A DNA stretch of 24,050 nucleotides from Coemansia sp. RSA 922 (Eukaryota > Kickxellomycota > Kickxellomycetes > Kickxellales > Kickxellaceae): the NCBI GenBank assembly GCA_027577415.1, contig JANBQS010000261.1, positions 1 to 24,050 of the forward strand. The letters are read 5' to 3'. The notes below the pieces were generated by a model, which saw only the letters and a program-made list of their open reading frames with translations, was not told the DNA's origin and did not search any database. Shown one piece after another: positions 318 through 23,186 of this stretch (positions are counted from its first letter, which is position 1; every line of letters starts with the position of its first letter). The position numbers were made by a program, and so were the translations under genes.

Positions 318-1784
318 ATGTCAAGTCCTGCTCGCGTCGACAACCTCGACATGGGGGCGACGGTGTGGATGATTGCGTCGACGGCGCTGGTGTTTCTGAT
401 GATCCCGGGACTGGGATACTTTTACAGCGGCATGGTTCGCAGCAAGAACGCGCTGTCGCTGGTGTTCTTGTGCATGATGGCGCTTGCAGTGGTAACGGTG
501 CAATGGGTTGTTTGGGGATACTCGCTGGCGCTGTCGGAGACGTCAAACAACGGATTCATCGGCGACCTTGGGCACTGGCTATTTCTAGATGTTGACTACA
601 GACCGCACCCGAATGCGCCGACAGTGCCAGGCGTGGTGTTTGCGACCTACCAGTGCATGTTTGCCGCACTGACGCCGGGTCTGGCCATCGGCGGGGCGGC
701 TGAGCGGATCCGCGTGCTGCCGACAATCGTGTACACGTTCATCTGGACGACGGTGGTGTATGACCCGATTGCGTACTGGGTGTGGGCGCCAGGCGGATGG
801 CTGGCAAAGCTGGGAGTGCTGGACTTTGCGGGTGGGTGTGCAGTGGAAATTGCATCGGGCTTTGCGGCACTGGCGTTCTACGCAGTGCTGGGCAAGCGGC
901 GAGGGTTTGGCGAAGAGAAGTGGCAGCCGCACAACCACCTCAACATCATTCTAGGGTTTGCGTTCTTGTTCTTTGGCTGGTTTGGGTTTAACGCTGGCGG
1001 AGCGTCGCTGGTGTCAGGGCGGGCTGGCATTGCATTTATGACCACCAACATTGCTGGGGCGGTGGCGGGCATCGTGTGGGTGGCGCTGGCGTACTGGCAG
1101 CAGCGGCGGTTCTCCAGCTTCCACTTTTGCTCGGGCGCGGTGGCTGGAATGGTGTGCGTAACGCCCGCCGCCAGCCTGGTCAGCACGTGGGCGGCTTTCC
1201 CCATGGGCGCGGCGGCTGGTCTGTTTTGCTTCTGCGCTGTCGAGGTGAGTCTGCGCCTGGGCATCGACGACTGCATCGACGTCTTTGCCGTCCACGGTGT
1301 GGGAGGCGTGCTGGGCGTAATGCTCACCGGCGTGTTTGCCAACAAGCACGTCATTGGCCTCGACGGCGCTGTGTCCAAGGGCGGGCTTATCAACGGCCAT
1401 GCGCACCAGCTGCTCATCCAGCTCGCTGCCGCTGCTGCCAGCGCTGCTTGGTCCTTTGGCGTGTCGTACCTGGTTCTCCGAGCCATGGACTGCGTGCCCA
1501 TCTTCCGCTTCCGCGTCGACGCAGCTGCTGAGGACCACGGCCTAGACTTTACTGAGCTTGGAGAGGCCGGGTACAGCTTCGTCCGCGACTTAGCCCTGGC
1601 TCATGCACCCGCCTCGAGACCTCACTCGCTATCTAAACCGCTAATTACAGAAGCGCCAACACCTCCGCCAGGCACTACCGCCGCCATTGAGGCAATCATC
1701 ATCCAGCACCCACACGACTCGCGCCCTATGCTCAAGGGCTCGCCCTCATCGGGGACCGTGGCTGAACTGCCATCGCCAAAGTAA
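318..1784 (+). CDS. Ammonium transporter, Amt/Mep/Rh family, Mep1/3-like
   Basis: A 488-residue polytopic plasma-membrane protein that should import ammonium. The family hallmarks are in order: GYFYSGMVRSKN at 33-44 (TM1), GGAAER at 125-130, VVYDPIAYW at 146-154 with the conserved Asp149, AGGCAVEIASG at 171-181, GFNAGG at 223-228, and DVFAVHGVGG at 321-330. The second pore His of the twin-His pair is H326. The first is Glu177 instead, a replacement known from the fungal Mep1/Mep3 subfamily and not from Mep2. After the last membrane segment the conserved cytosolic stretch (LDFTELGEAGYSF, 409-421) is followed by a Pro/Ser-rich tail. No intron is needed. The ATG at 318 is chosen because it opens the protein directly before TM1 and follows a TATA box. 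The next gene starts 91 bases after the stop. Confidence 0.95.
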   Translation: MSSPARVDNLDMGATVWMIASTALVFLMIPGLGYFYSGMVRSKNALSLVFLCMMALAVVTVQWVVWGYSLALSETSNNGFIGDLGHWLFLDVDYRPHPNAPTVPGVVFATYQCMFAALTPGLAIGGAAERIRVLPTIVYTFIWTTVVYDPIAYWVWAPGGWLAKLGVLDFAGGCAVEIASGFAALAFYAVLGKRRGFGEEKWQPHNHLNIILGFAFLFFGWFGFNAGGASLVSGRAGIAFMTTNIAGAVAGIVWVALAYWQQRRFSSFHFCSGAVAGMVCVTPAASLVSTWAAFPMGAAAGLFCFCAVEVSLRLGIDDCIDVFAVHGVGGVLGVMLTGVFANKHVIGLDGAVSKGGLINGHAHQLLIQLAAAAASAAWSFGVSYLVLRAMDCVPIFRFRVDAAAEDHGLDFTELGEAGYSFVRDLALAHAPASRPHSLSKPLITEAPTPPPGTTAAIEAIIIQHPHDSRPMLKGSPSSGTVAELPSPK

Positions 1785-2865: not shown

Positions 2866-5800
2866 TTAGGCGAGCTCATCCTCAACGTCGGCCTCGTCCG
2901 CAGCAGCAGCCGTCTCGAGCGCGCCAAAGGTCATAAAGTGGCTGGGGCGGTGCATGGCATCGTAAAAGTCGCGCGGCACGTCTAGCTGAAGGCCGTACGT
3001 CATGTCGGCGCGGTGCATGGAGCCCATAAAGTTGAAGTTCCACACGCCGTCGTCGTCGGGCACCATGAAGAAGCCCATGAAGCGGTCTGACAGCAGCATC
3101 TGCACGCGCTCGAAGCACGCTGGCGAGAATCCCTCGGGGCTGCTCGACGTCATGTCCATGTTCTCGCGGCCCCACTCGAAGCCCGCCGGAGTCAGCTTGT
3201 ACGCTGTCAGCGAGCACGAGCCTGGCGTGAACGCACACGTCATCACCACTGTGCGCTCGCCGTCCCACCGCGCCTTGGCCTTGTCCGCCGTGCGCGCGAG
3301 AATGCGTGAGTGGATGGTGACGTCCTGGGGCGACAGGTGCGAAAGCTCGTTGGGCATCGTGTGGATCCACCCCAGCGGCTCCAGATCGCGCAGATACTCG
3401 TGGCTGGGCATGCGGTCAGGCAGATGCACTTGCAGGTGCGTGGCCCACTGCGGCACCAGCACTATCGAGTGGACCTCCTTCACCTGGTCGTTGCCCGCTG
3501 GCGACACGCCGTAGAGGTAGCCGGCGACCTGCGTGCGGGGGTCGGCAATGGCAATGAACTGCTTGAGCAGGTTCTTGGGCAGCACGTACGTGTGGGCCGT
3601 GTCGCTGATGTCCTCGGAGGTCACGTACAAGTGCTTGGTGCGTAGCGGCAGGTTTTGCGCCGCAATCGCCCGCTGCCGCCACTCGGTCTTGGACTTGAAC
3701 GCCTGCGACTCGTAGTTGCTGGTCGTCGTCACCACGATCTCGTCGCCGTGCACGTTCTGAGTCTTGGTCGTAATGGCCGTCAGCTGCGTCTGCTCGCGCG
3801 CCTGCTTTTCGATCTCGGCGATCTGCTGCCGCTGCTGCGAGGGCGCCTGGATCTCCATTCCCAGGATCACGTCGCGGATCTCTGACGCCGTGAGCGACGC
3901 CACGTTGACGTTGTTCTTCTTGCCGTAGTCCGCCAAGATCAGGTCCTTGAGCTGGTTCTCCACCTTGATCCACTGCTCGTCGCTGAGCGTCGGCCACAAA
4001 TGATGCGGCTCCGTCTCCGTGGTCTTGTCTGGCCGCAGCACGATCTTGGCCCGCTCGTTGTTGATGTGCAGCGCGCGCAGGATCAACACCAGGCGCGAGA
4101 ACGCCGTGTACGGCGATACCGTCGCCAGCCAATTGTCGTAGCACGACCACATGCTCATCTTGGGCTCCGTCGCCTTGAGGATCATATCGCCAATCTTCTC
4201 AATCTTGAGCAGCGCCTGTAGCGGCAACTGCATCTCGCTGCCTCGGATAGTGATGTTGGGGAAGTCCAGCATCGTCACCTCCAGTGGATCCAGCATGCCC
4301 TTGCGCGACACAATGAGCTGGTTGGGCTGCTCCTCCACGGGCAGCGACCGTACTAGCGCCACTGTCTCCTCGGCCGTCTTCCACTTGGCGAGCTGGCCCA
4401 GTCGCTTCTGTCCGGCCCACACCGAGCTGTGGATAACCTTGATGAAGCACTGACCTGTACGTGGGTTCAAGATCGTCATTGCGCCGTTGATAGGCTTGGT
4501 GTTGCCCACCACAACTGGCCGCGACGCCGAAAGAACCTGGCCGCTGGCGTCAGTCTCATGAACTCGGCGCACCATGATGAACTGGCCCTTGGACGGCACA
4601 GACACACACCACACAGCGCCACTCTTTTGCGCCACGCCGCGGAAGTGCTTGCGCACGTTGAACATCGGCTCGACCTGCTGCAATTGCTCCGTAAAGTGAA
4701 CAGCCCATTGCTCTTGAGTCGACAACGGGTCGTTGCTTGGCTCTGGTCTAAACACAGCAGAGTACCCGGCATGGAGCAGCAGCCGCTGTAGCTCGTCACG
4801 GAAACGCATCGAATAGGTACGAATCGAGCCTGCCTCCATGCTGCTTTGGCAGCCACCGTTGGCCGTGTGCAGGCCGACGACAATAAGGCGCAGCTGGCGC
4901 ATATCCAAGCGCTTCCACACCCACTCCCAGAGCCATTCTCCGCATTTGTAATCGTAAGGGGACTCTGCTTTAAAGTACGCCAACCACCTTGCGTCCACAA
5001 TGTCATATAGGCGATAGGTGGAAAGTTCTGCACTTTCCGCAACATAGCTCATATGCACCCCGCTAGTTGCACCAGCTGCTGCGGACATTGGGAGTACGCG
5101 ATGGAGCTTCTCAAACAAAAAATCGAGGTAGTTGTCGATTGCCGGCCTCTTGGATGCCAACTGCACAGTGTCTGCGTCACGACCGAAAAGACACCCGGAT
5201 CCAAGCCAGTAACCGTACAGCTGCAAAAAGGCATCAACCTCGTCGTCAGTCTGCAAGCCCAGCGCGTCCATGAATGGCAGTCTGTCGGCACAATCCATCG
5301 TCGCTGCGCCTCCAGCAAAGCGGGCGATAAACTGGGCAGCTACCGACTCATCGCTGTTGCCCTTGTCTAATACCGATCCTGCCGTATGCACTTCAAACGG
5401 TGGCGGCATCGTATCATCGTTCGACACCCACTCGCGCTCACTGACTGTGGCGCCAACGCGCAGCAACATGCGATGGTTGGCAGTCGGCATAAGCGACACA
5501 TCGTTGGTGTCCTCGGGACGCTTTCCAGTCGATCCAGTCATCTCAACCAAGTCATGCGTGCCCTCGTCAACGGTGATATCGTCGACTGTGATCGGATGGT
5601 ACTCGAGCACTCCGTCGACATAGCACGCCATGTTCAGAGTAGCATGGCTCTGGAAGTGCGTTTGAACTTGAGCCAGGCTCCAGAAGCCAAACTCTGTCAG
5701 CAGCTGATGGTCCTCGACGGGGAAGCAGGTCAGGTTACCCTCAAACGTCTTTTGCACAGTGACGCGATACACATTGGTGTCGTCGACAAACCAGCAAGTT

Positions 5801-8800
5801 TGATGCGAGAACAGCTCTGCGTAGTTGGTGCTGTTGAGGTAGCTCTCGGTGGGCTCCGACGAAAAGAGCTGCAGCGCCTTGCGAATGCGCTCGCGGATGA
5901 CGTACAAGGCAGGGCTGGCCTTCATGATCTTGGCCATGGCTTGCTGCATCAGCGGCTTCATGCCAGGCACCCAGTTTCCGTATGCAGAGTACATGTTGTA
6001 CGCCAGATCCACGCCAACAATGATACCCGTTGGCGATGGATACAGGCTCATGCTGTCTGTCGTGTAGTCCAGGAACTTTGCACGCGCGTACCGCTCAATA
6101 TCGTGCGAGTCGTAGTCGCCCCAGCGCAGCTGCACGTCGATCCAGTACTTTTGCGTCGTGCCCGCATCCATGCGGTCGCTCGCGTCAGTCAATAGGCTGG
6201 GCGTCGATACTGGCCACTTGTACGAGGCAAAGCAAGTAATGTCGGCCGCCGAGCTGCTCATCTTGTATGACTTGCGCGGATGAATCGCCTCCTTCTGCAC
6301 GGTCTCGATCTGCAGGGGCTCCAGCTCGTTGTCGAGAACCTGGCACAGATCCAAGATCAGACTCTCGTGCGACTTTTGCCACGCATGGCTTCGGAACAAG
6401 CTCACATAGGAGATCTTCAGCGTTGGCAGCTTGCCGTGCATGAAAATACCCGTCAGATCCAGCTGCACTTGGAAGCCCACGTAGACGTTGGAGTTGTGTA
6501 CGACGGTGTTGTTGGCCAACACAAACAGCTGGTCCGACGAGTCTTCCAGCGTCAGTCCAACGTACTCGCCATGGCTCGATCCATATTTGGTCACCTCGAA
6601 TCTGTACTGGGCTGGGAAGCGGCGAACAACGGCAGGCGGCTTCAGGGATCCGTTATAGGCTACCCCGAGAGCAAGGACGTTGGTCATTGCGCTGCACGGC
6701 ATAAGCTTGGCTGCCAACTCTCCCTCGTCGATCAGGGAATCATACTGAATACCAAGCGACCTGGCTATGGCAAATAAACCAGGGACAAAGGCACCCGACA
6801 AACCGAAGAACGTCACGCCCGAATACTGATCTAGTTCCGCTTTATAGTCCGCGTAACGAGCCGGTTCAGAACTGGCTTTAAGATTGAGTTCAAAGATGGT
6901 CGCCGGCGCTGGGTCCACAATGTGTCTCTTAAAGCCAATCAGACCAGCCAGCAGGTGTTCACGGACCCGGAGGAGATCTGTCGCAAAGAACTCTGGTACC
7001 GACGATGCATCCGAAGTACCGAGTCCGAGTTTTAGAATCAGATCCCAGAACCTGTTAGAGTCCGTCCCGGGTACATCGTCGAGTATGTAAATAGGCTCGG
7101 CACCCTCAACATCGGGTCCGCCTGACTCTGGCTCCTCAGAGACACGAAGGCCGATATGCTCGCAGATCTGCAAGATATGCCTGACAATATCCAACTTGCC
7201 GTAAGGCAGGTAGAGTACTGGTGCCCTCGGGTCGCCGCAGTTGATCCAGAGTCCAACCAAAAAGGCAATTTCGTTCGAGGAGCTCAAAGGCAGGCCCACT
7301 GCAGTAACCAGTGGAGCAAACACGTTGTTCTCAATCAGAATTGGAGCCGCCAGTTGATACGTGCGATTACGGATAGAATCGCTTACTTGCCCGTAGAGGC
7401 GGGCATCCAGCTCCCAGGCGATAGGCGACATGTCCAAGCCTTTGATAAACCAATGTGCCGCCTCGTGAGCCAAACCCACCGAGCTGATGTCCTTCGAGAA
7501 GGGGAACTTCTTCCTCTCCCATACGACCAACTTTACTTCTTCGCCGCTAACAAGCGTCGTGAGTTTTAACGCCGTGTAATCGACGACTAGTGTTCCAAAC
7601 TCTTCGTCGTCATACATCACGTCACTGACAAACATGCGCGACACCAAGTGCAGGATGTGGTGCGAATTGCAAACGAACGATGCAAGTCCGATGTCACTAG
7701 ATCCAAGCGCCATGTCATCTTGGCGCCACTCCCGCACCTCATACATGGTATCCATACCCGAGTGGACCGATTCGACTAGTCGCTCCTTCGAGTCAGGGCC
7801 CAGCACATAGTCACCTGCGTAAATGTTCTTTATAGCGCGGACCGAACCATTGGCCATAAACACTTTAGTGTCCGGCTTGAAGCAGCGGTTAATCGTGGGC
7901 GACCACCACATGGTGAAGCGACGGTTGGGAATCTGGTTGAGACCCGAGCGCTGAGCATTGGTGAGCTGACGCTGACCCATGGCACCCGAGAACGACGTCG
8001 ACTGCTGCTGCCAGAACAGACCTTCCCAAGTCGGATAGTACGTGCCGCGGAAGAGCGAGTGCTCCAGAATACACTCAACACCGCCTAGCGCTTGGATCAT
8101 ATCCGTGCGGTAGTTGTTCAGCTGCCACAGCTTGCCGTCGTGCTTGGCGTGAGTCCACCAGAACGGGTTCGCCTTGGGGAGCTGATACTGCTTCCACTCT
8201 GTGCGAATACGCCAGCCCTTGTCGTAGGCCAGCGTGTGGCGATCCTTAGAGAACAGCGTGTTGATACGCGGAATACCACGGTCCCAAGAGTCCTCCAAGT
8301 CCTCGAGTGTCAACCGACGGTTCTGCGCATTGGCCTCTTGCCGCTTCAAGGCATACTCAGCCCACACGCGCTGCGAGTCGACAAACTCGCTCTCCCAAGG
8401 CAAAATGTACCGGAACAAGTTGGGGATCATCTGGCCGTCCTCATGAGACATGCCAGCGCGGAAATGCGAAATACCAGTGTCGGTCTGCTTGAACCACCGC
8501 AGATCGGACTGCGGGATAAGCACGTGGCCCATCGACAGCATGCCCAGACCGCCCAGCTCTTTGGGACAATTGGATCCAACCACAAAGTCGCCATGGCAGA
8601 ACAATGGCGACTGGCCCTCGGCGACCTGGAAGCCGTAGTACTCGCCCGTAGTCACAGGCAGCGTAGAAACCTCAAAGTGTCCGACATGCTGCGAGCTACT
8701 AGTGCTTTCACAGTCAGACAGCGAGCGGCCGCTGGAGCTATTGCCCGAGTAAACGGAGGTCACGCTGGGCATGGCGGCAAAGTCGCCACGAACCATGACA

Positions 8801-11800
8801 AAGCCATGCGTGGCGTTCTTTCTAGTGATCGTCTCCAGCCCAAGCGACCTTGCAACTTCGTAAGCTAGACGCAGCGACGACCCGTTGGCCAGTGGTTGCG
8901 CAATAATCATGCGCCCATCGCTGGCCATTTTTCCACACACATCAAGCATGCCAGCTAGCAAGGCAAACCGCGTCGCAGGTGATTCGGCAACTAGCAAGTC
9001 GCGCGCCTCGACAGATACTTCGCGCGTATCTGCAAGCCCAAGACCACTGAGCAGCGTGGCAAACGCGGAGGGCTGCTCAGAATTGTTATTGTTGGCAGTC
9101 GCAACGGTTTTGGACCAGTGGAGCACAACCGATTCAGCGATGTCAGAGCCCAGCGTACTACCACAGTTGTCAAATGCGTCGCTGCCACACAACCAGCATC
9201 CAAGCGCCCAGGCAAGCTGTTCAATGTCGACCAGCTGGCTCTCAGGGCTATCGGCAAGCAGCTTGAGTATGCCACGGTGATATCTGGCTGACACATTGGT
9301 ACCAATTCTTGGCACCCAGGTGCTGACCTTGCCACTGTAGGCCATCACACAAGGCACGGGAGTTTCGCCACGGGCGTCCATATACCTGACGTACTCCAGA
9401 TAGTCGTCCACGCCAACCGTCCAAGTAATATGGTCGCTCTTGGGGCTAGCGGCTTGTGCTGCTGCCCGGGCTTCATCCTTCGAGTTGAACACCAGATTGG
9501 ACGACGCAGCCGGCACGCAGCCATAGCACATCGAGCGACAAGGAGGAGGTAGGCTCTCAGGATAGCGGTTCGACATGACCCGGTACGCTGCCTTTTGCTT
9601 GTCGTGCCAGACGTACACACAGTCAGGCGATGCGCCAGCGCTAACAGCCAGCGCGCGCATCTTCTCTACGTGTGCAGTGGCCTCCCTCAGCGCCAGTGCC
9701 TTGCCATTCTCGGCCAAGCCAAAGAAGTTGGTGTTGTACTCAAAGACCTGCTTGGCCACATACGGACGCTCAAAGCCGAGCTCATCATCAAGTCTGAGAG
9801 TAACGAACTCGACGACGAACGACCCGACATCAGACCACTGCGACTGAGCCACGCGACAGGCCTTCTCGCGCATTTCGCACTTGGTCGACACGCGAATGAC
9901 CAGCCGATGCTTCTCGTTACAAAGGAACGAGTCGTTAAACAAGAGCTCATCGGCGTCTGTCACTCCTTGCGCAGATTCGATGCTGTCGCTAGAGATGCCT
10001 GAGCAAATGCTTTGCACCGAGATGCTGCTAGCCGTCCGCACGACTGGCGCATTGTAGTTCAGTGGGACGTGGTTATCGTCGCACTTGGTCTTTGGCTTGG
10101 CTAGCGACACGCTGTACAGTGGCGCTGACCCAGACATGGTGTGAGCAACGTCGCGAGGCAGTCCATCTGCGCCGAGAACTTGGTCGCCAACAGAAATGTC
10201 CTCAATGGCCTTGGTCGACCCATCGGCCATGCGCACGCGGAAGCCAGCGCCATAGCAGTAGAAAATGACGGGTGGCATGCGGTTGCTGTCCTTGGAGTTC
10301 AGGCCCAGCATGATGCGCGCCTGGATCTTGGTCTCTGCCTTGACCAGCAAATCGAGCATCTCTCGCGTATGCACTACGGCCTCGCGATAGTACGTCATCA
10401 AGCCAATCAGTGCCGTGTTGAACTTGTTGGCGATCTTGGTAAACGTCGTGCTACCCGATGACATGAGGATCTGGCGGATTCGGTTGTTGAACCGCTGAAT
10501 CGACGCGTCGTCAACACGCAAGAAGGCAGTTGCCGTGCGTTCCTTGCTGCGATCGTCAATAAGCGCCCACGAGCCGTCCTGTGCAGCTGAACCCTCGGTC
10601 AGTTGGCGGCACTTTGGCAGAATACGCACCTCAAAGCCAGCCATGTCAAAGAGCAAGTTGGGATTGTCGCGCGAGTACACGCTGACAAAGCTCGCCTCGT
10701 CGTCCCACTCAATCGTCGTCAGCGAGCGCGGCAGGCGGTTCTTGATATCCCAAAATACAGCACGGCCAAGGTTGACGTCGTGCTTCATTAGTCGCATGCG
10801 GCTGTCGCGAGGCCAGCAGCGCTTGTTGTTGTAGCCAACAACGTTCTCGTTATTCGGATCGGGGTTCTCTGTCAAGAAGCGCTGGATGAGCTCGCGCGAG
10901 TCATCTTGGTCGTCAAAGCGCAGCAGCATATAGACACGGTCAATGTACCGCATGTACATGCGGATCGGGTGTCTGCGCTCCGTCTCGACGTCCTTGAACT
11001 GCAAAAAGTCATTAGGCATGGTTGGCGCGCCAGCAATCTCGCTGGCACGCTGCAAGCCGAGGATCAGAATATCGATAATCATGCCGTAGTACTGGAAGAT
11101 GAATGGTGCAAACTGTAGACCGCGGATCAGACCGTACGAGTTGACGTGGTTCATGTCCTTGAAGCTGATGACCACGTTGTTCTTGGCAGTCATGTAGTCA
11201 GCCAAGTTGTGGTCCAGAATCAAGCGCAACAGCCGGTTGAGCAGAGTAAGGTCGATCTTCTCAAACACGCGCGAAAGCTTGGCTTCCAGCATGACTGTGC
11301 ACTCGCCATTAGCCGTGCTCCAGGCTCCGTCAAGGTTGTTAACGCCCTGGCACCACTTGTAGACCAGCAATGGGGATGGCTCAGAGTCGGCTGGCTTGAC
11401 CCACGGTGCCCACAGCCGGCGCTTGTCGGCCTCGTACCACAGATACTGGTCCAGGTACGCATCGGTGATCTTCTCGAGCGGCTCAATGTCAAACACGGGG
11501 ATCAGGTGCGAGTACATGTCCATAAACTCGATGCCGACCTCTTTGAACGCACGCTGCGTGAGCAACAGACGCTTGATGCGAGCAAGAGCACTGTGAGGCT
11601 CATCGAACGCCTGCTCAATGAGGCCCAACTCTTCGCGCTGCGACGAATTCAAGTGGCCCTGGACCGAGTACGACTCGCGCAGGCGTTCCAGTGCCAAGAT
11701 AAGCAGCTTGGGGTCGTGCTTGTACGACAGAGGCGGGAATGGGATAGGCGAGAAGCGGCGCGACTCGAGCCAGTGTACGGCCGTTACGTAAATAGTGACG

Positions 11801-14800
11801 CCCTCATCGGCGCTCACGTAGGGCCCGTCCTTCAGGTAGTTGCGCTGACGCTCTTGCTCGGCCTTGAGCCACAGCCGCGTGAGACGTCCACAGTTGCGAC
11901 GAGCAATAGCCTTGTCGACTGTCGCGCCGCGGCGGATGCGCTCGCGGTTGTAGTGGGCCACGGAAGTCCACCAATCGGCCTTGGACTTTACATAGCGCAA
12001 GATCATGTTCTCGATGGGCTTGGGCATGCCTGGTACTTGCCAGGGGATGTTGGCCTTGTAGCAGTTGTGAGTGACCACAAAGTTGCCAAGAAGGAAGAGT
12101 GGCGACTTGTCGAGGGTGAAACCACAGTAAGGTCCAGGCTGGGAGCGCTTGCGAATGTGGAAATCGACAGCACCGAGATAGCAGGTCGAGCCTTTGCAGT
12201 CGTGAGGGCCGATTGGCTTCTCCTTGCATGGGATAAGATGGACATCGTCGCCAGTTATCGAAGCGGACCAACGCGTTCCCACAGATGTCGTAACGGTCGA
12301 CGCAGCACTGGTGTACGAGTAGAGGTCGCAAATGAGACCGAGACTACGGGCAACCCTCTGAACAAGCTTGATAATCTCATCATGCCCGATGGTGTAGTCA
12401 GAGTCGACACCCTGAACGATCGAGTAGGCATACGAGGTTAGGCAGTGCTTGCACTTCTCTCTATTGCCGTCGCCGTCAATAAAGCCAGCGAGGAAGGAGC
12501 GACGGAACGCGATCGACTGGCTCAGGATGTTGGACACGGTATTGCCATTCACAGAGCCCTTGCTAGCATAGCCGAAGACGCCAAAGATGTCGCGGAGGCT
12601 GTTGCCTTGCCCCATGCCGTCCGTGCGAGACAGGCAGACAATCCACATCCTCTCGGTTGTATGTTGCGTCTTGGACAAGTTGAGGTCGAGCTTCGGCGCG
12701 ATATCCTCGAGGAAGTCCACAATCGTCATCTCGTCAAGACCGACAAAGAACTCCATCGAGGCGTCGTGGCCGTTGGCCATGTGGAGGCCCATGAGGTACG
12801 CGATGTCGCACTCGGTGACACCTGGCTTGGCTTTGTGAAGCGTGCTCTTGACAACATCAAGGACATCGACAGAGGAGGCCAGGGGAAAGGTAATCGGTTC
12901 GCGAGGTCGGAACATGCGCATCTTGTCGGCTTCCTTGGGGTACATGTTGGCCCAGGCGACATACTGCGCAGCTTCCACATTCCAAGTAAGGCATCCGCGT
13001 GCCCTCAGGTCGGCTGCAAACTTGCTGGCCGCGACACGGGCGGCGTCCTCCGACGGGAACATGCCGGCAACAGAATAGGAGAAGGTGCGTGACGTGTGAC
13101 CGAGCACGGTGGTAGGACCGCCTGCGATGGGCTTGCAGGGCAGAAGGTCGGCGTAATGCACCTCGAATGTACAGCTTTCACTCAGGTCGCAGACCTTAAC
13201 TATGTCGAGTTCGGGTGACACGAGGACAAGCGTGTGGCGGCTGTTGCACTCAAAGTTGTCTTCAACAAAGGTCCACTTCTCGTCCGTAGTGGGGACAGAT
13301 GAGAAAGGAAGGAAGGCGACCTTGTAGACGTCGTCTTGGCCAACCATAGTGTCCGTGACGGTCAAGGCAGCGCCGTCATGACCGAGGACCTTGTTGCCAA
13401 CCGTGATGTCCTTCGCCTTGACAATCGCGCCGTTGGCCATAATGACTTCAGCGTTGGGGGCGAGACACCGCCAGGCCTCTGACAAGTGCTGCAGGATCAC
13501 CTTGCTCTTGTTGCCGCGAATGCCCTCGGGCATCATATCGAGGATGTCGTGCATCACAGCTGCGCGCAGCTCCAGATCGTAGTGCGAGTCCACGCGCTGC
13601 TTGGTCAGCGACTTTACCACGCCCTTGGAGTTACGGCCCTCGAACTGGCGTGCCAGCAGGTTGCCCAGCCAGCGCTCGAGCAAGGGGACAATGCCGCGCA
13701 AAAAGAACAGCCATACACGCCAGCCAGGCGCCCAGAAGCCAACTCCAGGACCCTTTCCTACTGGCCCAGTGTTTCCAAGAACGACCGGTCGCGAGGCGGA
13801 TGTAATGACCCCGCCGTGTACCTGCCGCACCCGCCGCACAATGATCAGCTGCTGCTGAGTCGGCACTGTGACACACCACACTTTGCAGTGGCGCTGCTCC
13901 TGGCTGAACTCCTTCTCAACAGCCAGCACCGGTCTCGCTGCCTCGTCATCGCTCCAAGAGACAACCCAGTGGTCGTGCTGAGCGATAACTGCTTGGCCTT
14001 GCTGGTCGGTGCCATTGTTGGTTCCCTTGGGATACGACAAGGCCCAATAGCAGCTAAGCCCGGCATTCAGACACACTCGCTGTAGCTCATCCCTGAACCT
14101 AACCGAAGACGTGTCCACACTGCCGCTCGCCAGGGACGAAGCCTCGCCCCCATCAGCCAAACTCAGTCCCCGCAGTATAAGCCTCAGCTGTTCCTTGGTG
14201 CATCCACGAAGCACCCACTCGAAAAGCCACTTGTCACTCTTGGAAGATAGGCACTTGTCGCCGTACTCAGCGGCCATGTACTCGAACCATGCCACGTTAT
14301 CGACCACATATCGACGGCCATGGACCTCAGTGCACTTATCCCCGACCCGATCCGTATCAACCCCAACTGAAGGCAACACACGCTCAAGCCGACCGAAGAG
14401 CGCACCCAAATAGTCCCAGTCACGAGTCTTCGCAGGTTCGAATGTTACGGTCTGAGAGTCCATGTCCAGAGAGCCATGGTCACCAAGCCAGTACCCATAG
14501 AGCTCAAGGAAGGCCGAGGTCTCGTCGTCGGATTGTAGACCCAAAGCCGAAAATGGCAAATCACTGAGCGCGGTCTCCACCACACCATGTGGGCAGTTCG
14601 CCTCCAGCTGCACCAAGGCGTGAGGGCCGATAGAATGACGGAGCTCATACACCTCGGCTGCCGAAATAACTTTGAACGAGTCGCCTTCCAGCGCGTCATC
14701 TTGGACGGACGGACCAGTACGGACCCACATGCGGTGTCCCGAAGTTACCACGAGGTCGATATTGTTGCGTGCAACCTCAGCGCTCTCGGCAATGTGGATG

Positions 14801-17800
14801 AGGTCGTGCGTTCCTTCTGCCACGGTGACCTTGTCCGAGGTAATATCGCGGTATACAAGGCGCCCCTCGTCATAGCAGGCAATTCCCAGTTTGGTGTGCC
14901 TCTCGAAGTGCCTCTGAACATCTATCAAGTACATCCAGCCATCCTCGGTCAGGATCTGGTGGTCCTCTGGGAAGCAGTTGAACCTGTAGTAGATCAGGTG
15001 CTTCAAGTCCTTGCAGGCGCGGATCTGCCGCATCAGTCGGTACTTGTAGCGATACATGCCAGTCAGCTGGCCCACATGCGCAAACAAGTACTGCAGTCCG
15101 TCGGCGAGCTGGAAGGCGTCGACGTTGCCCAGGCGATACTGGACGTGGGAATCCACAATGAGCTTGGTCAGACGAAGAATCTCGCGGCAGTTGTGCACTA
15201 CTACAGTTCCCGCGACAAAGTTCTCGTGGCCAGGTACCGAAATATCGTAGACTAGGCGTCCCTCCGCCTCCTCGTCGACTCGAACGATAGGAATCAACAC
15301 CGCTGTCTCGAGCGCGTCTTGCCAGTTGTCGATGTGCGCAGTCGACTTTGACGGCAACCGCACGAGCTTCGAAAACGCCTCAAATGCAAGCTTAGTAGCC
15401 GAACTGTCGCCAGTGCTGGGCTGGCTGACATGGCCATGCCAGCGGCGCAACAAGTCAAAGCTGGTTTGCAAGCGGCGGCAGTAGCGCACGCCGACCTTTT
15501 CCACAAACAGCATAAACGAGTCTGGCAACAGACGCAAGCCTGCCGCGTAGTGTCCCTCGACAGCTGGCACTTCGCTGTCAGTAACAAAGGCGGTCTCGAC
15601 GCCAAAGCTCTCGAGCAGAGCACGCTGCATCCACTGAACCGAATCACACAGGACATCGTTCGATTTGGGATCAGCGGCGACATACGAGGTAGGCGTATTG
15701 CCAAGAGCAGCCTCGGTTGACTCTGAGACAGCACAGCTGCCGCCCCACCAAGCGGCCAAGTACTCTCTCTGGACCGACACGGGTGCCTGCCGAATGACTG
15801 GCGGAACACTGCGCGCAGAGACGAATTGGCTGTCATGGGCGCACCCGATACTTGCAAACATCTGCTTGACAACATCCGGCACGTCTAGCACAAAATGTAC
15901 TCCAGGTGCAGACATGTTGATTCGCCCGCACCCAATGCGCATCAGGACCTTCACGCCGGAGATAAGAGCAATGTCAGCCGCGGCCTGATCAGCATCGGAG
16001 CCATGACTGAACCAGAGCTGGCTAGAGCTCACGCCAGCGACTCCGCTGGAGAGGAAGGCGCCAAGCAAGCGAGCAAATGCCAGAATGAGCTGGCGATCGC
16101 TCTGCATGTTCCACGACAAAAGCTGGTACTGAGAGTCGGCGTCACTGGAAGGAGAGTCAGTGACGCTCCACAGGGCAGAACACACAATGGAGTGGTCCCT
16201 GGTCAATTCCCCAGCCGGGACGTATTCGGCATCCTCAATGGTAGCGCCAATGTGACCATGGACGGCAAGCACTGGGTGGGATGGCGTGACGACAAGCGTG
16301 GTTCCATCCAATCCGGTGATGCGCAAGCATATCTGCGGCGATGCATGGACTTGGAACGCATCGCTGCCAGCGCGGCCTGAAAGCTGGATCGACTTGCTGC
16401 CACTCTTATCGCCGTCGTCACTAGGCGCTACGCACTGCAGCGCCTGACCGCCACGCACAAGCTCAATGGGCACAGCAAGGCCGCTGCCGAGACTGACTGG
16501 CGTGCCCGCGGCAACGCACAGATGGAACGCATTGCCAAAGCGACTCTTCTTGCGCTCTTTAGTGGTCAGCGTCTTGACGGGCTTCAAGTTGAAGTTATAG
16601 TCGAGATGCAGGTAGTTGAGTCGCTTGCGGTGGATCAGCAAGTTGAGCATGTTGTGGCCCTGTCGACACACCTGCAGGCCAGCCTCAACCCAATCGATCT
16701 CGGTAGATTGAAAGAATTTAGTCGCCTTGAACTGCCGGAACAGGTACTTTTTGCGCTGCGCACGAGGCGGGCTGGAGTGGATGGCGTTCAGCACGTAGTT
16801 CTTCAGCAGTTTCTGGTACGATACGCGCACCTTGACAGGCTGCCCCTGGGGACAGTGCTCCATGTACCAGTCCTTAACCAGCGGGACGTCCATTGCGCGA
16901 CGCGTGCGGCCCGAGCGTGCGCTAAAGGGATGCGGTGCCCAGTACAAAGCAATGCCATTAGCCGTATTCTCGGTCTCCAAGGGCTGGTCTTCAAGGAACG
17001 CCGAGGCGCCAAGCGGAAGCACAAAGTCGGTGTCCTCGTCTTGGTCGCCAAAGATCTCGTCCTCGACCAGTCGCGCGTCGTCTTTGAACTGCGACACGAG
17101 GCTGCGCGAGGAGATCGGGTTGATTACTGGGTCAAAGTAAAACGCAGGCAGGTCTGGGTCGTCGGGGCGCACGTACTGCACGGCTGGCGTGTGGTACGGA
17201 GCAACGCGTACCTTGCGAGGCAGCGAATTGTACAAGTGCGGGAACGCCACTTTATACTCGGTACGCACTGGCTGACGGATAATGATCTTGTTGATGTCGT
17301 TAAACTCGTTCCAGTCCTCGTCCGCCGGGTTGATATCGCGATACATGGGCTCGAATTTGGGTCCACCTGGAATAGCCATATTCAGGCACTTTGCCGTAAT
17401 GAACGAGTTGAGGTCGAAAAGATAGAAGAAATTCGGATCGATCAAGTCCGACAGCAGCTGGCTAGCAAGCCGGTGCAAGTTTGCCATCACTGGCAGATCC
17501 AGCCTCCACTTGCGATAGGAAGAGCCGTTAACGCGACGGCCAACCGCGCTCTTTGCAATGTCCTCTTCGTCCTCGTCGGCCAGCGGCTTGCTGTCGTAAA
17601 ACCAGTCTAGGACTGCCGCGTCGTCGTCCTCATCGAGCTCCATCTGGATGGCTTCCAGTGGCTCGACATCAAGCAGATTGTCGCCAAAGTCCAAGGGCGG
17701 CTCTTCGTCGTCAAATGGCGGGAAGCGCATGCGCTTAAAGTGCTTGCGATCGCGCTTCTCGCGACGCATCATAATCCACATGGAGCCCCACTGCGCCATA

Positions 17801-18267
17801 TACACGGGCTCGATAACCCAGGGGATCTCGTTAACAAAAGTGATGGCGCCAGTTACGTGGTACAGCACCGGCACGTCGCGCGCCTGCTCCCACGGCATGG
17901 GCATGTTTTCGAGCAGCTTAAGCACGGCATGCGGCACGTACTTGAGCGCTCCCAAGTAGACGCGCTTGTCGTGGCGGTACTTGCGCGCGCTCATGTCGCC
18001 GTGGTCCTTGATGATCTTGCGCAAGTGCTCTGGCGGCATGTCGCATTTTTCCTGCTCGGCAAACCCCATGCGGCGCTTCGTGTCGTAGCGCTGCGAGCTA
18101 AGCTTGCGCCACTCGAGCGCCTTTTTGTCCGTCTCGGCCGGCGCAGGTTCGCTTGGCACAAACTGAGGATCGAGAGGAGTAATCCTTGACTGATCTGGCT
18201 CTGCACGCTGCTGGTTACCATGCGCGTCTCGCTCCCGGCGTGACGAGCTCATTGAAGAACCAGTCAT
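2866..18267 (-). CDS. PRP8: Pre-mRNA splicing factor Prp8 precursor with six inteins
   Basis: Prp8 is the U5 snRNP scaffold that cradles the spliceosome RNA core. The 5133-codon frame has no stop and needs no intron. Removing the six inteins leaves 2384 residues; Prp8 proteins are usually 2330-2420. Exteins in precursor numbering: 1-583, 1027-1097, 1500-1600, 2069-2670, 3234-3461, 3926-4180 and 4590-5133. Across every junction the flanks rejoin into near-universal Prp8 sequence, for example FGNAFHL+CREILRL, LIYYRFN+TGPVGKG and KTFEGNLT+TKPINGA. The N-terminal domain covers exteins 1-3, the reverse-transcriptase-like and linker regions exteins 4-5, the endonuclease-like and RNase H-like domains exteins 6-7, and Jab1/MPN roughly the last 285 residues. 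The start ATG at 18265-18267 precedes a short polar tail before the first conserved block. With all inteins retained the protein should not assemble, so splicing of all six should be needed for viability. Confidence 0.97.
4501..5727 (-). mobile_element. PRP8 intein 6 (409 aa), degenerate paralog of intein 2
   Basis: Precursor residues 4181-4589, between KTFEGNLT and TKPINGA (after spliced residue 1840), inside the RNase H-like domain. It begins [15 protein letters not shown] and ends RPVVVGN with Thr at +1, the same Gly-Asn ending and +1 Thr as intein 2. Block B is TANH at 82-85. The motif helices align with intein 2 but have Ser177 (LYGYWLGSG) and Asn290 (VGLHTANGG) in place of both aspartates. 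The shared stretch [20 protein letters not shown] and the shared SASRPVV end make descent from one element clear. Confidence 0.94.
6493..7884 (-). mobile_element. PRP8 intein 5 (464 aa), degenerate endonuclease
   Basis: Precursor residues 3462-3925, between WWSPTINR and SNVYVGFQV (after spliced residue 1585). This is, from memory, the common Prp8-a site of Cryptococcus and Aspergillus inteins. It begins [13 protein letters not shown], has NSHH at 73-76, and ends NNTVVHN with Ser at +1, where intein-free Prp8 (for example human) has Ala. LAGLIDADG remnants are LVGLWINCG (209-217, Cys216) and LAGLIGFKR (312-320, Lys319). Both acids are gone, so it should splice but not home. Blocks A and B resemble inteins 3 and 4. 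Confidence 0.94.
8569..10257 (-). mobile_element. PRP8 intein 4 (563 aa), largest, degenerate endonuclease
   Basis: Precursor residues 2671-3233, between PPVIFY and [10 protein letters not shown] (after spliced residue 1357). It begins [13 protein letters not shown] and ends FVVGSN with Cys at +1; the penultimate residue is Ser, not His. Block B is NEKH at 114-117, displaced by a Ser/Asp-rich insertion of about 45 residues (roughly 60-105). A long region at 170-300 with [16 protein letters not shown] resembles the DNA-recognition part of fungal Prp8 inteins. Motif helices ALGCWLCGS (351-359) and LAGMLDVCG (434-442) have Gly358 and Cys441 at the catalytic positions, so cleavage is not expected. 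At +1 most Prp8 proteins have Thr; here it is Cys. Confidence 0.93.
12064..13467 (-). mobile_element. PRP8 intein 3 (468 aa), partly conserved LAGLIDADG endonuclease
   Basis: Precursor residues 1601-2068, between LQHLSEAWR and CYKANIPW (after spliced residue 755). Cys1 lies in [13 protein letters not shown], block B is NSRH at 75-78 (Asn in place of Thr), and the end is NFVVTHN before Cys+1. The second LAGLIDADG helix is canonical, LAGFIDGDG at 326-334 with Asp333. The first, LMGLHMANG at 225-233, has Asn232 at the acid position. A conserved block between splicing and endonuclease parts ([10 protein letters not shown], 161-170) is shared in pattern with intein 4. One acid is lost, so cutting is probably impaired. 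Confidence 0.94.
13771..14976 (-). mobile_element. PRP8 intein 2 (402 aa), LAGLIDADG endonuclease apparently intact
   Basis: Precursor residues 1098-1499, between LIYYRFN and TGPVGKG (after spliced residue 654). It begins [14 protein letters not shown] and ends RPVVLGN with Thr at +1, so the penultimate residue is Gly rather than the usual His. Block B is TSGH at 78-81. Both LAGLIDADG helices keep their acidic residue: Asp166 in LYGYWLGDH and Asp275 in [10 protein letters not shown]. It is the only one of the six with both, and so the best candidate for a still-active homing element. It is plainly homologous to intein 6 over its whole length. Confidence 0.94.
15190..16518 (-). mobile_element. 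PRP8 intein 1 (443 aa), degenerate LAGLIDADG endonuclease
   Basis: Precursor residues 584-1026, between extein ends FGNAFHL and CREILRL (after spliced residue 583). Splicing motifs are complete: Cys1 in [13 protein letters not shown], block B TPSH at intein residues 78-81, block [15 protein letters not shown] near the end, and VVVHN before Cys+1. The endonuclease core is recognisable but decayed: LLGAFLSSG (151-159) and YLAAWWGGS (253-261) both carry Ser where the metal-binding acid should be. Block A and block F are unlike the other five, so it appears to be an independent lineage, closer to the common intein pattern. Protein splicing should work; homing should not. Confidence 0.95.
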
Positions 18268-18534
18268 CGTCCTCTTATAGTTTTCTTTGGCTACAGTAGA
18301 GATATGTGTATACTTTTTTTGTAAATTAGCTTAACAAAGAGCGGACCTTCCTCCTTTGCTCATTCTGTGACTACAGGTGGAGGCCTACCTATTCGAATGT
18401 GTCGATTGTTCAGTAGCGGTTTCAAGAAAATTTAAACAAAAAATATAAATTTAAGAACGCGACGATTTGAACTCAGTAGACGCTAAGAGCACTTTTTTTG
18501 AAAAAGTCGATCTCCAGTGAGGAAGAAAATCGTG
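18268..18534 (-). promoter_or_regulatory. Upstream region of PRP8
   Basis: AT-rich sequence before the PRP8 ATG, with T-runs and short A/T tracts (18307-18330, 18421-18455). No clear TATA box in the sense orientation, no ORF of note and no RNA gene. The CG-to-AT composition change between coding DNA and the island begins here. Confidence 0.4.
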
Positions 18535-18537
18535 TCA

Positions 18538-18576
18538 AGCGGATTACCAGTTGGATCTGATCAGTGGTACTACCAG
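18538..18576. repeat. Dispersed palindrome-rich repeat, copy A
   Basis: AGCGGATTAC, a 5-base spacer, then 24 identical bases at 18553-18576 shared with copy B at 23864-23887. The core contains the perfect palindrome CTGATCAG followed by the inverted repeat TGGTACTACCA. The 24-base identity 5.3 kb apart is far beyond chance. Read on +, the core could encode SDQWYYQ, so it may be a relic of a coding repeat instead of a control site. Confidence 0.75.
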
Positions 18577-18961
18577 CAAGGTCCTTGCTGCAATTATCTC
18601 GGTAGAGCTGTCTGTGTTGCCCTTTGATTCTTGCTCAAAGACACCGTCAAATCGCCTACAGAGCACAATTGTCAGAGATAAGGACTCTGGCTGGAGAAGG
18701 TCATCCGGTTGGCGCAGCACTACGTGGGGGGTCATGCCATTTTCGGTGATACTCGGCATGATACAGCATATCGGAGACCCGAGCAATCAGCAATATCAGC
18801 TGGCTTTCATCGATCCTGAGCAACAAAACAAAGAAAATACTCCCGAAAACCATGAGACTACTCGCAGCAAGTGCCAGGAACATACTAAAGAAGTGCTGCG
18901 CGAAAAAAGTCTGCACAATTGTGAAGATGTGGGGAATACTTCTTATGACGAGCCACCCCAA
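18544..18961 (-). pseudogene. Possible decayed membrane-protein gene fragment
   Basis: Two overlapping - strand frames (18701-18961 and 18544-18786). The first has two strongly hydrophobic stretches separated by a short polar gap, around HFFSMFLALAASSLMVFG and SQLILLIA, like membrane helices. The second continues in another frame without recognisable domains. This is compatible with a frameshifted remnant of a membrane protein; the family cannot be named. A + frame over the same bases (18551-19036) looks like its shadow. Confidence 0.2.
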
Positions 18962-19290
18962 ATAGCTTGTTTTAATCTTGTTTCTTTTGACAACTTAATA
19001 TCTGGGACTGCATTCGTGCATACATCATATGCCTAAAGAACTATGGCGGTCTTATGTAGCCATTATAAAGGTGCAGAAATTAAACGTGCTCATATCATAT
19101 GGCCGCTAAAGGACGTGTGTGGATTGGCGAGATATTTACATGAAACATCAGTACAATTGTAGATTCTCAGGTGATAAGCTGAATCTGAATAGCCCCTATG
19201 TGTAATTTATGCTGAGGCAATTAACTATGTGACTTTTTAATACTACCTTGCATGGGTGTTTGAGTGAGACACAAAAAATCCGCATTCACT

Positions 19291-19322
19291 GAAGAGTACG
19301 CTCTGCCTGGCAAGTACTCTTC
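19291..19322. repeat. Perfect 9-bp inverted repeat (hairpin)
   Basis: GAAGAGTAC at 19291-19299 pairs with GTACTCTTC at 19314-19322 over a 14-base loop. A TATAAAT follows three bases later, which could make it an operator-like site, but no gene start is evident downstream on +. Confidence 0.6.
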
Positions 19323-19470
19323 GAGTATAAATTGGCAACAGTTTTCTGGCCCTCCGAGTTTTTTTTTCAAGTAATATATTTTAAGTTAAGAATGTGCTTT
19401 TATCAGTGACTTTTACCACCTCCACCTCCACCTACACCTCTCGCTGTAACGCTGGCCACAGCCCCACACT

Positions 19471-19488
19471 GCCGCCGCCGCCGCCGCC
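19471..19488. repeat. (GCC)6 trinucleotide repeat
   Basis: Six uninterrupted GCC units, close to the ACCTCC-rich tract at 19417-19440. Simple-sequence repeat without a supported coding frame. Confidence 0.8.
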
Positions 19489-19822
19489 ACTGGAGGATAT
19501 TTTTAAACTTCAACTTTAACTTGTCACGGGAGGCAAGCGATTAATAACAATTGCTCGTACGCCAACAGGAGTATCACATTTAAATAATAAATAACAATTT
19601 ACACCCAACATCAAAGGTTGTTAATTCGACGCCAACTTTATGTTATTTCGACCCCCTCATGCCTGGAAATCGTTTTTTCCCGCAAGTTTTCTCCCCAGCT
19701 TAACTATTGACCAATCATGCATCTACTGCTGCTGCCACTGCCTCTAGATCCACAGCAAGGCCAGCATCCGCCAGTTAGGCGGAATTTTTACCCCCATTTT
19801 TTGAGTAGCAAATATATGACAA

Positions 19823-20188
19823 TTATTTTGTACTTTTTTCAAACACGGCGACAGTAGTGTCGTCCTTGTCGATTGGTGGACGAATGTACTCTACCTGGCA
19901 CTTGGGTAGCTGCGGGTTGTCTTGAACGCTATCTCTGGGTTTTAGCCCTGTATTAGTAATGGCATATACAAGAATCCTATCGATGCAACACTTCTTAGTC
20001 CCTTGATCTAGTGGTCGCTTGGTCGCTTTGTTTATACTACTCTCTGTCATGATGTAGCATTTTCCACCAGCAATACTGGGTGTACTGCCAGTGCACGCAG
20101 CTATTCCTAATCACATACCTTTAATGGAGTCAGCTCTTTCTGGATCGACAATAGCATGCCGTCTTTCACTGTCACCACTGACATCCAT
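19823..20188 (-). CDS. Possible two-exon small gene (about 96 aa), unrecognised
   Basis: Exon 2 (19823-20043 with stop) is an open frame that has an ATG of its own at 20048-20050. A better model adds exon 1 (20119-20188, start MDVSGDSERRHAIVDPE). The proposed intron, 20044-20118 (75 bases), begins GTATGTG and ends ATGACAG, typical fungal borders, and the join keeps the frame (phase 1, making a Glu codon). The product would be polar and soluble, with a pair of Cys and an acidic end (PPIDKDDTTVAVFEK). No family is recognised. Exon 1 is short enough to be open by chance. Confidence 0.3.
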
Positions 20189-20847
20189 ATGAATTGCAGA
20201 ATACTTACCATTTTAAAAAACCTACCTTTAACTATCAATTTAAAGCCAATAGCAATAAAACGTCATTAGTAAAATAGTCTTACCTACGACTATCAATTTT
20301 TACCAAGGTATCATAATATGAGGAAATAGAACAGAAATGAAAAAACAATTAGTGTTAGAGAGAATATTTGCCAGGGAAGTGTTGGTGTGCGGCCTTGCCT
20401 TAAATACTTGCCATGGCTCTCCAACATTTGATACAAGCTACACCCTACTCCGCTAAAATTTCTCTAATATAAACACTTTTCCTGATCCGTGCTGGCCAAA
20501 AGATAGCACTTGATTTATCACCGTGTGCTTGAGCACTATCTTCTCCAATCGAGCCAATGGCCTAAAAAATACACTAAGAATATTCGATGATGTCAGAGAT
20601 CAAACTAGCGATTGTCTGCTTAAGGCGTTGATATGATCACCCAAGTCCACACGTGACAGTAGGGACTTTTATGTCCTCCTGACAGGTTTGCAGTCAGAGC
20701 ACCTCCACTAGCAATCAACGGGAAAACAAGGGTAAAGAAAATCATGGCCCTCATTAAAAAGCAGAGCAAGCGGCCCTTGCTTTTTTCTTTCTTTCTTCAC
20801 TTTTCTGCACACATCCACTTACATTATTTCAAATAACGCTAGAAGAA
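20189..20847. other. Intergenic, AT-rich, no gene seen
   Basis: No supportable ORF or RNA gene. On the - strand the motif AATTGATAGT followed within a few bases by GTAGGT or GTAAGA occurs twice, 60 bases apart (around 20223-20240 and 20283-20298), a short direct repeat that resembles splice donors. From about 20755 the sequence becomes pyrimidine-rich and forms the leader of the gene at 20848. Confidence 0.4.
20763..20820 (+). promoter_or_regulatory. Leader motif pair shared with another small gene
   Basis: AGAGCAAGC at 20763-20771 and CATCCACTT at 20812-20820, 49 bases apart, precede the ATG at 20848. The same pair (AGAGCAAGC and CATCCACTC, 42 bases apart) precedes the - strand start at 22337-22339. 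Related promoters are suggested, not shown. Confidence 0.3.
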
Positions 20848-21132
20848 ATGGACAATTACTACACTGCAGAAGGCCATGATAACTACAATTTTCAAATGTA
20901 TAGTTTGAACCCAAGTGCAAGCGGAAAGACTATAGTGGTCAATTGCACTGTCGATAATACCACTACTATTTCCGATTTACGGGCTGTTGTAGTGGCTAGA
21001 TTCAAGAAATTGGTGACAAAAGAGTTTGCTGTATTGCTATATACTGAACACCCTAATAATGGTGGAACACTGCTTCGAAACAGTGGTGAATTTAGTAGCG
21101 ACATGAAGATTTACTTTGTCATTGTTGGATAG
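20848..21132 (+). CDS. Small protein with ubiquitin-like pattern (94 aa), hypothetical
   Basis: An uninterrupted 94-residue frame after a long C/T-rich leader. Residues 26-94 follow the order of a beta-grasp fold: strand GKTIVVNCTV, turn, helix TISDLRAVVVARF, strand EFAVLLY, a loop with GGTLL, and a last strand MKIYFVIVG. GKTI near the start and a Val-Gly end are reminiscent of ubiquitin, but there is no C-terminal Gly-Gly, so conjugation is unlikely without processing. Ubiquitin-like N-domains also occur in Crinkler-type proteins; no Crinkler motif is visible. It lies in the AT-rich island and shares leader motifs with the small gene on - at 22017-22339. The fold call is inference. Confidence 0.5.
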   Translation: MDNYYTAEGHDNYNFQMYSLNPSASGKTIVVNCTVDNTTTISDLRAVVVARFKKLVTKEFAVLLYTEHPNNGGTLLRNSGEFSSDMKIYFVIVG

Positions 21133-21370
21133 TAGAGACAGAATCGGCTTGCTCTTCAGAGCAATTAAGAGAAGCAATGCTAGATGACAGAGCATTTACA
21201 AATATACGATGGCTCCCCGAATAACGAATGCTTTAGTGAGCTAAACTCCAGTCTTTTTTTACATGTAGTCAACAGATACTTTGTTACTATCCAATAACAT
21301 TTTTATTCATACTCCAGACTGAATGGTATGCAGGTGATGTATGCCAAGACATTACTCTTTGTCCCCAGTG

Positions 21371-21637
21371 CTGCCTGTAGATGTGTAGTATCTAGCTTAT
21401 TTTGGCGTTAGCCTAAGTCACCGTTCTAATGTCTCGTATTAAATAAATAATAAAAGCTATAAGAAGTGATTGAATGAAACCTAAGCCGGTGTGCCGTGCG
21501 CGGTTCCTTAATGACCAAAGTCATGGCGCAGTAGCGCTAGTCGTCAACATTAAAGATCGCCCCGTTGGGCGATAGATCGGTCACGTGACCGAAATGTGGG
21601 ATCGCTTGCTGATGCGATGTGTCGATCCTACACTGCC
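21371..21637. repeat. 5-bp target-site duplication CTGCC flanking the solo LTR
   Basis: CTGCC at 21371-21375 and 21633-21637 brackets the insert exactly. Removing the insert plus one copy restores alignment and reading frame with the related ORF copy 2. Confidence 0.6.
21376..21632. mobile_element. Probable solo LTR (257 bp)
   Basis: It begins TGTAG and ends CTACA (TG...CA with 5-bp inverted ends) and is bordered by the direct repeat CTGCC at 21371-21375 and 21633-21637, a 5-bp target-site duplication as made by LTR-retrotransposon integrases. The related sequence at 23010-23100 runs straight through the site without the insert and so acts as an empty site. Inside are an AT-rich block with AATAAATAATAAAA and CTATAAG (around 21440-21465), plausible LTR signals. 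No retrotransposon ORF is adjacent, which fits a solo LTR left by recombination. A small non-autonomous DNA element is the alternative. Confidence 0.6.
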
Positions 21638-22016
21638 AACAATTTCAGCAATGGCGGAAGAGACAAGAGTGGTGTTCTGGCACAATATACACGCCCATCT
21701 CTGTGCTGTGACCCAAACCCCGCAACAGCAAAATCCAAAATGCTCTCAATGCCTTGTTTGGTTGGTATGGATTGCCGCTGCACTACATACCAGCTTTTTA
21801 TATATCACTTCTGAATTGAAGTACAATGGGTTACACTATATGTTAGCAGTATAACTGTGTAAAGTATTTATTTAAAGACTTGTTGTAAATGTTAGTTGTG
21901 CCCTAATGGGTCTACTAAGTAACATGGTCATAATCATTTGTAACTTTATGCAAAAACAGGCAATATTGTAAAGTGCGGACTAGACAGCCTTCACCAGACG
22001 CGAAGAGGTCAGTATT

Positions 22017-22451: not shown

Positions 22452-22474
22452 GTGGAAGACTGGGACATTCCCAC

Positions 22475-23183: not shown

Positions 23184-23186
23184 TCA

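Follow-up and report, generated by a model that had tools for sequence, protein, structure and literature searches.

The PRP8 gene of Coemansia sp. RSA 922 was analyzed on the first 24,050 nucleotides of contig JANBQS010000261.1 (C261; this whole stretch is referred to as the window) and is most likely interrupted by six inteins. A probability of roughly 0.94 is assigned to the reading that the six inserts are encoded within one precursor of 5133 amino acids (aa), most likely combine a Hint fold with a LAGLIDADG-type endonuclease or a remnant of one, and would excise themselves from the protein. This reading is supported by junctions obtained from six reference proteins, by family and fold matches, by a second gene copy under purifying selection and by insertion sites shared with relatives.

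The reading frame spans positions 2866-18267 on the minus strand of the window and encodes 5133 aa plus a stop codon without interruption. The preliminary description of the window had named this 5133-codon frame, which was confirmed, and had not given its strand. A Pfam scan of the precursor identified the Prp8 domains PRO8NT, PROCN, RRM_4, U5_2-snRNA_bdg, U6-snRNA_bdg, PRP8_domainIV, JAB and PROCT, which are separated by Hint and homing-endonuclease matches. The exteins thus hold the set of domains by which Prp8 is recognized.

The junctions were mapped against six intein-free Prp8 proteins (P0158, P0163, P0165, P0201, P0144 and P0148), an alignment that had been suggested beforehand. Each of the six references yielded the same six junctions, and the inserts are therefore in-frame and missing from intein-free homologues, as expected for class 1 inteins. 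The junction caller has a built-in bonus for Cys and Asn at the insert ends; with the bonus switched off, the best junction per insert and reference was one position or two adjacent positions and always included the given junction. Seven exteins with a sum of 2384 aa and six inteins with a sum of 2749 aa resulted, which are exactly the totals proposed earlier, so that more than half of the primary translation product (2749 of 5133 aa) consists of inteins. No in-frame stop codon is present in the six inserts, while the other two frames contain 6-35 each. The third-position G+C content of PRP8 in the window is 0.79 for the exteins vs 0.66 for the inteins.

In the order of translation, with all positions on the minus strand and a slash marking the insertion point, extein 1 (16519-18267; aa 1-583, 583 aa) is followed by intein 1 (15190-16518; aa 584-1026, 443 aa) at the site GNAFHL/CREIL. 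Exteins 2 (14977-15189; aa 1027-1097) and 3 (13468-13770; aa 1500-1600) are the short islands of 71 and 101 residues that had been described before, and the junction mapping bears them out. Between them lies intein 2 (13771-14976; aa 1098-1499, 402 aa), a member of a divergent family with the junction Gly-Asn/Thr. Intein 3 (12064-13467; aa 1601-2068, 468 aa) is inserted at SEAWR/CYKAN and is followed by extein 4 (10258-12063; aa 2069-2670, 602 aa). Intein 4 (8569-10257; aa 2671-3233, 563 aa) is located at PPVIFY/CPKELGG, upstream of extein 5 (7885-8568; aa 3234-3461, 228 aa), and intein 5 (6493-7884; aa 3462-3925, 464 aa) at SPTINR/SNVYVGF, upstream of extein 6 (5728-6492; aa 3926-4180, 255 aa). 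Intein 6 (4501-5727; aa 4181-4589, 409 aa), at FEGNLT/TKPING, belongs to the family of intein 2, and extein 7 (2866-4500; aa 4590-5133 plus stop, 544 aa) completes the protein.

The first residue is Cys and the last residue is Asn in all six inserts, and the residues at position +1 after inteins 1 to 6 are C, T, C, C, S and T. From the composition, the triple of Cys, Asn and C, S or T has a chance probability of about 7e-5 at one position. A block B His could be assigned to each insert (TPSH, TSGH, NSRH, NEKH, NSHH and TANH), so that the residues listed in the preliminary description were recovered in six of six cases, with the block B His as a predicted candidate picked by motif.

The search with intein profiles proposed earlier was successful for four of the inserts. 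PF05203 was detected in intein 3 (E-value 1.4e-21, together with PF05204 at 3.7e-7), in the N-terminal part of intein 4 (2.2e-18) and in intein 5 (2.4e-41). For intein 1, the match to PF14890 (1.9e-8) is 1.1 bits below the cut-off; the NCBIfam model intein_Cterm passes its cut-off, intein_Nterm fails it, and the remaining three NCBIfam matches are far below their own cut-offs. Intein 5 also matches PI-SceI (2.5e-29) and the Cryptococcus Prp8 intein (0.0023) in sequence. No credible Pfam match and no PDB sequence match was obtained for intein 2, and no Pfam match for intein 6. For the fold prediction of intein 2, an alignment with 12 other sequences was used, in which MAFFT misplaced several rows, and nine rows were taken. 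The predicted fold consists of a Hint and a LAGLIDADG part and matches PI-SceI (VMA1) and the archaeal TliVMA intein. The Hint fold of intein 6 is assigned solely via its 39% identity to intein 2 over the full length.

When intein 2 was used as the query, 21 proteins were retrieved. The family members mostly start with C[FL]P or C[FL]A, with DH or similar at positions 5-8 (mostly C[FL]P..DH..LT), and mostly end with SRP...GN or GQ, followed by T, C or S. Their hosts are Prp8 (four sites), RNA polymerase beta subunits, a PI-kinase-like protein, a ubiquitin hydrolase, dynein heavy chains of Entophlyctis and Sorochytrium, and others; some of these host names are presumed from Pfam accessions. In P0221, three copies of the family occupy three Prp8 sites. 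The natural reading of this distribution is that the family moved between sites and genes. P0222, P0227, P0225, P0226, P0228, P0231 and P0235, all with members of the family, comprise one RNA polymerase subunit, dynein heavy chains and several other large proteins.

A second PRP8 copy was found on contig C263 of the same assembly, with 96.7% DNA identity to the window copy across 14 kb; upstream of PRP8, the match between the contigs is broken into pieces of 87-90% identity. The frame of the second copy is open over all 4468 aa, with one single-residue gap, up to the contig end within intein 6. In inteins 1-5 it retains the first, last and +1 residues, and in intein 6 the start. Between the copies, the synonymous divergence (dS) is 0.064 for the exteins and 0.078 for the inteins. 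The ratio of nonsynonymous to synonymous divergence (dN/dS) is 0.015 for the exteins and 0.317 for the inteins, the latter being far from neutral (p 3.5e-21); an unweighted count resulted in 0.013 and 0.279, respectively. Five of the six individual inteins are constrained (p <= 2.5e-4), as are the pooled middle (endonuclease or linker) parts of inteins 1-5 (dN/dS 0.38, p 2.9e-10). Since dS is similar for exteins and inteins, the divergence indicates that the inteins predate the split of the two copies. The copies may be either alleles or derived from two strains; other genes checked for haplotypes gave one RNA polymerase match and nine HSP70 matches in the assembly. The assembly, which is possibly incomplete, yielded no third, intein-free PRP8.

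The two copies also bear on the question whether the inserts could be an assembly artefact or contamination, which might be suspected from the fragmentation of the assembly into 960 contigs and from the end of the second copy inside intein 6. This explanation is of practically negligible probability. The inserts are present on both contigs (inteins 1-5 whole and 6 partial on C263), and inteins are found at the same sites in other assemblies, namely in Coemansia sp. S100 for inteins 1-3 and in C. aciculifera and RSA 2050 for inteins 4-6. This agreement of two contigs and further assemblies makes an assembly error unlikely. The three are also the best named matches (S100, P0122, 100% over aa 60-585; C. 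aciculifera, 99%; RSA 2050, 98%). In the partial S100 protein, exteins 1-3 are identical to those of the window, and inteins 1-3 differ at 12, 3 and 6 positions. The S100 gene is thus a third haplotype.

Several observations weigh against the interpretation of all six inserts as inteins. The penultimate His is present in inteins 1, 3 and 5 and missing in inteins 2, 4 and 6, of which 2 and 6 end with Gly-Asn and 4 with Ser-Asn. In addition, Pfam gave no family match for either intein 2 or intein 6, and intein 2 is the only one whose fold was predicted, with moderate confidence. The profile of the 2/6 family compared with canonical Prp8 inteins reached a probability of only 47-57%, and this local match covers the endonuclease rather than the splicing part. 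Finally, purifying selection between the copies is not detectable for intein 3 (dN/dS 0.82, p 0.28). Gly-Asn ends are already on record in the accessible part of PMC1635734, where they are given for the Pno RPA2, Ceu ClpP and Candida ThrRS inteins, which share this ending with inteins 2 and 6. Because such published exceptions exist, the penultimate His was not used as an excluding criterion.

The inserts could instead be spliceosomal introns that are removed from the pre-mRNA, which is how the public models of C. mojavensis (P0124) and Linderina (P0126) are annotated; neither contains an insert of at least 90 aa. The reading frame, the constraint and the splice sites contradict this explanation, which is regarded as highly improbable. 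None of the six inserts breaks the reading frame in the window copy, nor in the C263 copy as far as it extends, and the pooled inserts are under amino-acid constraint. No exact GT-AG pair is present at any junction, and no pair within 12 bases of either insert end restores the extein protein. The models themselves point in the same direction. P0124 matches the exteins of the six-intein protein of RSA 989 (P0008) at 2373 of 2395 residues, and 21 of the 22 differences are located at five of the six intein junctions. All six P0008 inteins have left their initial 7-20 residues in P0124. Given the retained intein starts and the clustering of the differences, the introns of P0124 are false. In P0126, two sites carry stubs and a third shows altered residues, and no intein-bearing twin is available for comparison; at least two inteins were likely excised as false introns in this model. 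It had been tried as a census reference and was dropped, as its intein stubs gave several wrong junctions. Gene predictors can thus turn inteins into false introns, and intein counts based on annotation can be too low.

For the comparison with relatives, 223 proteins were examined, which were taken from the top of ranked lists, include partial sequences and are no random sample; four of them were added because they carry the intein 2 family. Sites were numbered by the residues of Coturnix P0194, which is otherwise unsuitable near residue 1538 owing to extra residues. In this numbering, inteins 1-6 of the window are located at sites 547, 618, 719, 1318, 1558 and 1813. The 17 proteins of the Coemansia group that are complete enough for a tree, including the window protein, contain 3-6 inteins each, distributed over eight sites in total, with intein presence entered by hand. 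Site 547 is occupied in 17 of these proteins, 1318 in 15, 1558 in 13, 1507 in 10, 719 in 9, 1813 in 6, 877 in 5 and 618 in 4. P0016 was retained in this tally as it groups with Coemansia, and the partial models P0006, P0017, P0122, P0123, P0125, P0220 and P0224 as well as the stub model P0124 were left out. Higher loads were found in three Dimargaris proteins (8-9 inteins each) and in Mycoemilia scoparia (P0025), where ten inteins are contained in 6458 aa and two of them are separated by a 13-residue extein. In C. aciculifera P0002, the empty site of intein 2 reads YYRFN-AAPVAKGPG vs TGPVGKGPG in the window exteins, with the +1 Thr changed to Ala, and may be a scar, a resistant site or a model error.

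By a strict automatic rule, at least four inteins were counted in 25 of the 223 proteins. This rule undercounts, as it finds 8 instead of 10 inteins in P0025 and one too few in P0007 and P0019. In the negative control, 45 of 48 proteins picked by number gave no intein call; the three with calls (P0187, P0188 and P0198) come from fungi, carry inserts at site 1507 or 719 and were wrongly in the list. The flanks agree on both sides at 20 sites, four of which were each seen in a single protein. We interpret a 21st row, whose flanks do not agree, as site 1507 with a diverged flank. Among the proteins examined, inserts at the positions of inteins 5 and 6 were confined to Coemansia, Kickxella, Mycoemilia and a small number of unnamed or metagenomic proteins.

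The state of the endonucleases was assessed at LAGLIDADG motif positions that we take to hold the catalytic acids. Intein 2 retains the aspartate in both motifs, the first of which has one extra residue, and is the only one of the six with the acid pair of an active homing endonuclease. In intein 3 the second motif is intact and the first is lost; its counterpart in C. aciculifera retains both. The acids of both motifs are lost in inteins 1, 4, 5 and 6. The inteins with residual catalytic residues (2 and 3) are located at the patchy sites 618 and 719. All three inteins at near-universal sites have dead endonucleases. Retention at patchy and decay at near-universal sites is what the homing cycle predicts, a pattern that is only suggestive because of the small number of six inteins. 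Intein 6, likewise at a patchy site with a dead endonuclease, runs counter to it.

Under the interpretation as six self-splicing inteins, PRP8 would be translated as a single precursor of 5133 aa. Following the steps of class 1 protein splicing, each intein would excise itself by an acyl shift at Cys1, transfer to the Cys, Ser or Thr at +1, cyclisation of the Asn and ligation of the exteins, and the product after six excisions would be a Prp8 of 2384 aa. The inteins would have arrived as homing elements over a long period. They would mostly persist since an intein is rarely lost precisely and a splicing fault would ruin an essential protein, while the endonucleases decay.

Alternatively, the inteins could be retained as regulators of Prp8 that pause its maturation under stress, as has been proposed for the Cryptococcus Prp8 intein. 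The values of dN/dS significantly below 1, including those of the pooled middle parts, would fit this role, as would the metal inhibition of a Prp8 intein described in the available part of PMC6805012. The need to splice, on the other hand, already predicts purifying selection, five of the eight Coemansia-group sites are patchy (618, 719, 877, 1507 and 1813), and the Aspergillus site, the commonest by flank, is empty in the window gene. A regulatory role therefore seems rather unlikely. PRP8 is probably a general intein trap in Kickxellomycotina and their kin, with at least 20 sites among the proteins examined and up to ten inteins per frame that are partly hidden as false introns in public models. 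Part of this load would belong to the divergent family missed by Pfam, which would have spread between PRP8 sites and to other genes, among them those of RNA polymerase and dynein.

In the accessible parts of the earlier literature, seven Prp8 intein sites, a to g, are described (Green et al., PMC6805012), or six (Green et al., PMC5784728). This agrees with the earlier statement that PRP8 is an intein host with several insertion sites, and the 20 sites found here extend the published map of seven and offer many natural inteins, some from the family missed by Pfam. The window inteins resemble those at sites a-g in host gene, in-frame Hint inteins, Cys1 and terminal Asn; they differ in that six occur together and that the Aspergillus site is empty. 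Acytostelium P0042 has two Prp8 intein sites, one common to intein 1 and the other being the Aspergillus site, and by inference intein 1 would lie at site g. An assignment of the intein 5 site to site a was rejected, as the intein of Aspergillus P0078 is located directly before SGFEESMK.

PI-SceI and TliVMA share with the window inteins the Hint fold with an inserted LAGLIDADG endonuclease (by sequence for intein 5, by predicted fold for intein 2). They are single inteins in a V-ATPase. The endonuclease of PI-SceI is active, and those of the window inteins are mostly decayed. Group II introns alongside inteins are reportedly the subject of a 2003 paper on Trichodesmium, by its title. The ribonucleotide reductase of Trichodesmium erythraeum is cited as an example of many inteins in one gene (PMC1635734, in part); it is likewise an essential gene, but bacterial and with four inteins. 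Haloarchaeal MCM also has neighboring inteins in one gene and raises the question of which endonucleases stay active, but is archaeal with four sites (PMC10643990, in part). No report of a comparable load in one gene was found in the open-access literature accessible for Coemansia, Kickxellomycotina, Zoopagomycota, PRP8 and five to ten inteins, and one may be in print elsewhere. The kind of element is known, and the load, the clade-wide spread and the divergent family are new to this searchable literature. The preliminary description had called six inteins at once exceptional, which holds in relation to the published load, which is far exceeded here, and does not hold within the clade, where such numbers are usual. 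Production of the essential 2384-aa protein seems to require six protein-splicing reactions, and that of its counterpart in a relative ten. Such genes allow tests, out of reach with single-intein genes, of the splicing order, the minimum extein island, the efficiency per step and joint decay or hitch-hiking.

Further inteins were observed in the same genome. A V-ATPase subunit A (VMA1-like) gene on contig C82 (L014, 3569-6718, plus strand) contains one intein (Hom_end_hint, 1.5e-75; Hom_end, 1.1e-16). Three eIF5B/IF-2-like genes (L015, 883-4956; L016, 1547-5935; L017, 1675-5919; all on the minus strand) each carry a Hom_end_hint insert, located either within the GTPase domain or immediately before it.

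In the window, Rfam, tRNA and tandem repeat scans gave no match. The approximately 5.8 kb upstream of PRP8 (18268-24050) have a lower G+C content of about 0.40-0.47; no gene was recognized there, and two short frames are without a Pfam match. Downstream of PRP8, an ammonium transporter gene is located on the opposite strand (318-1784, plus strand; PF00909, 7.5e-108).

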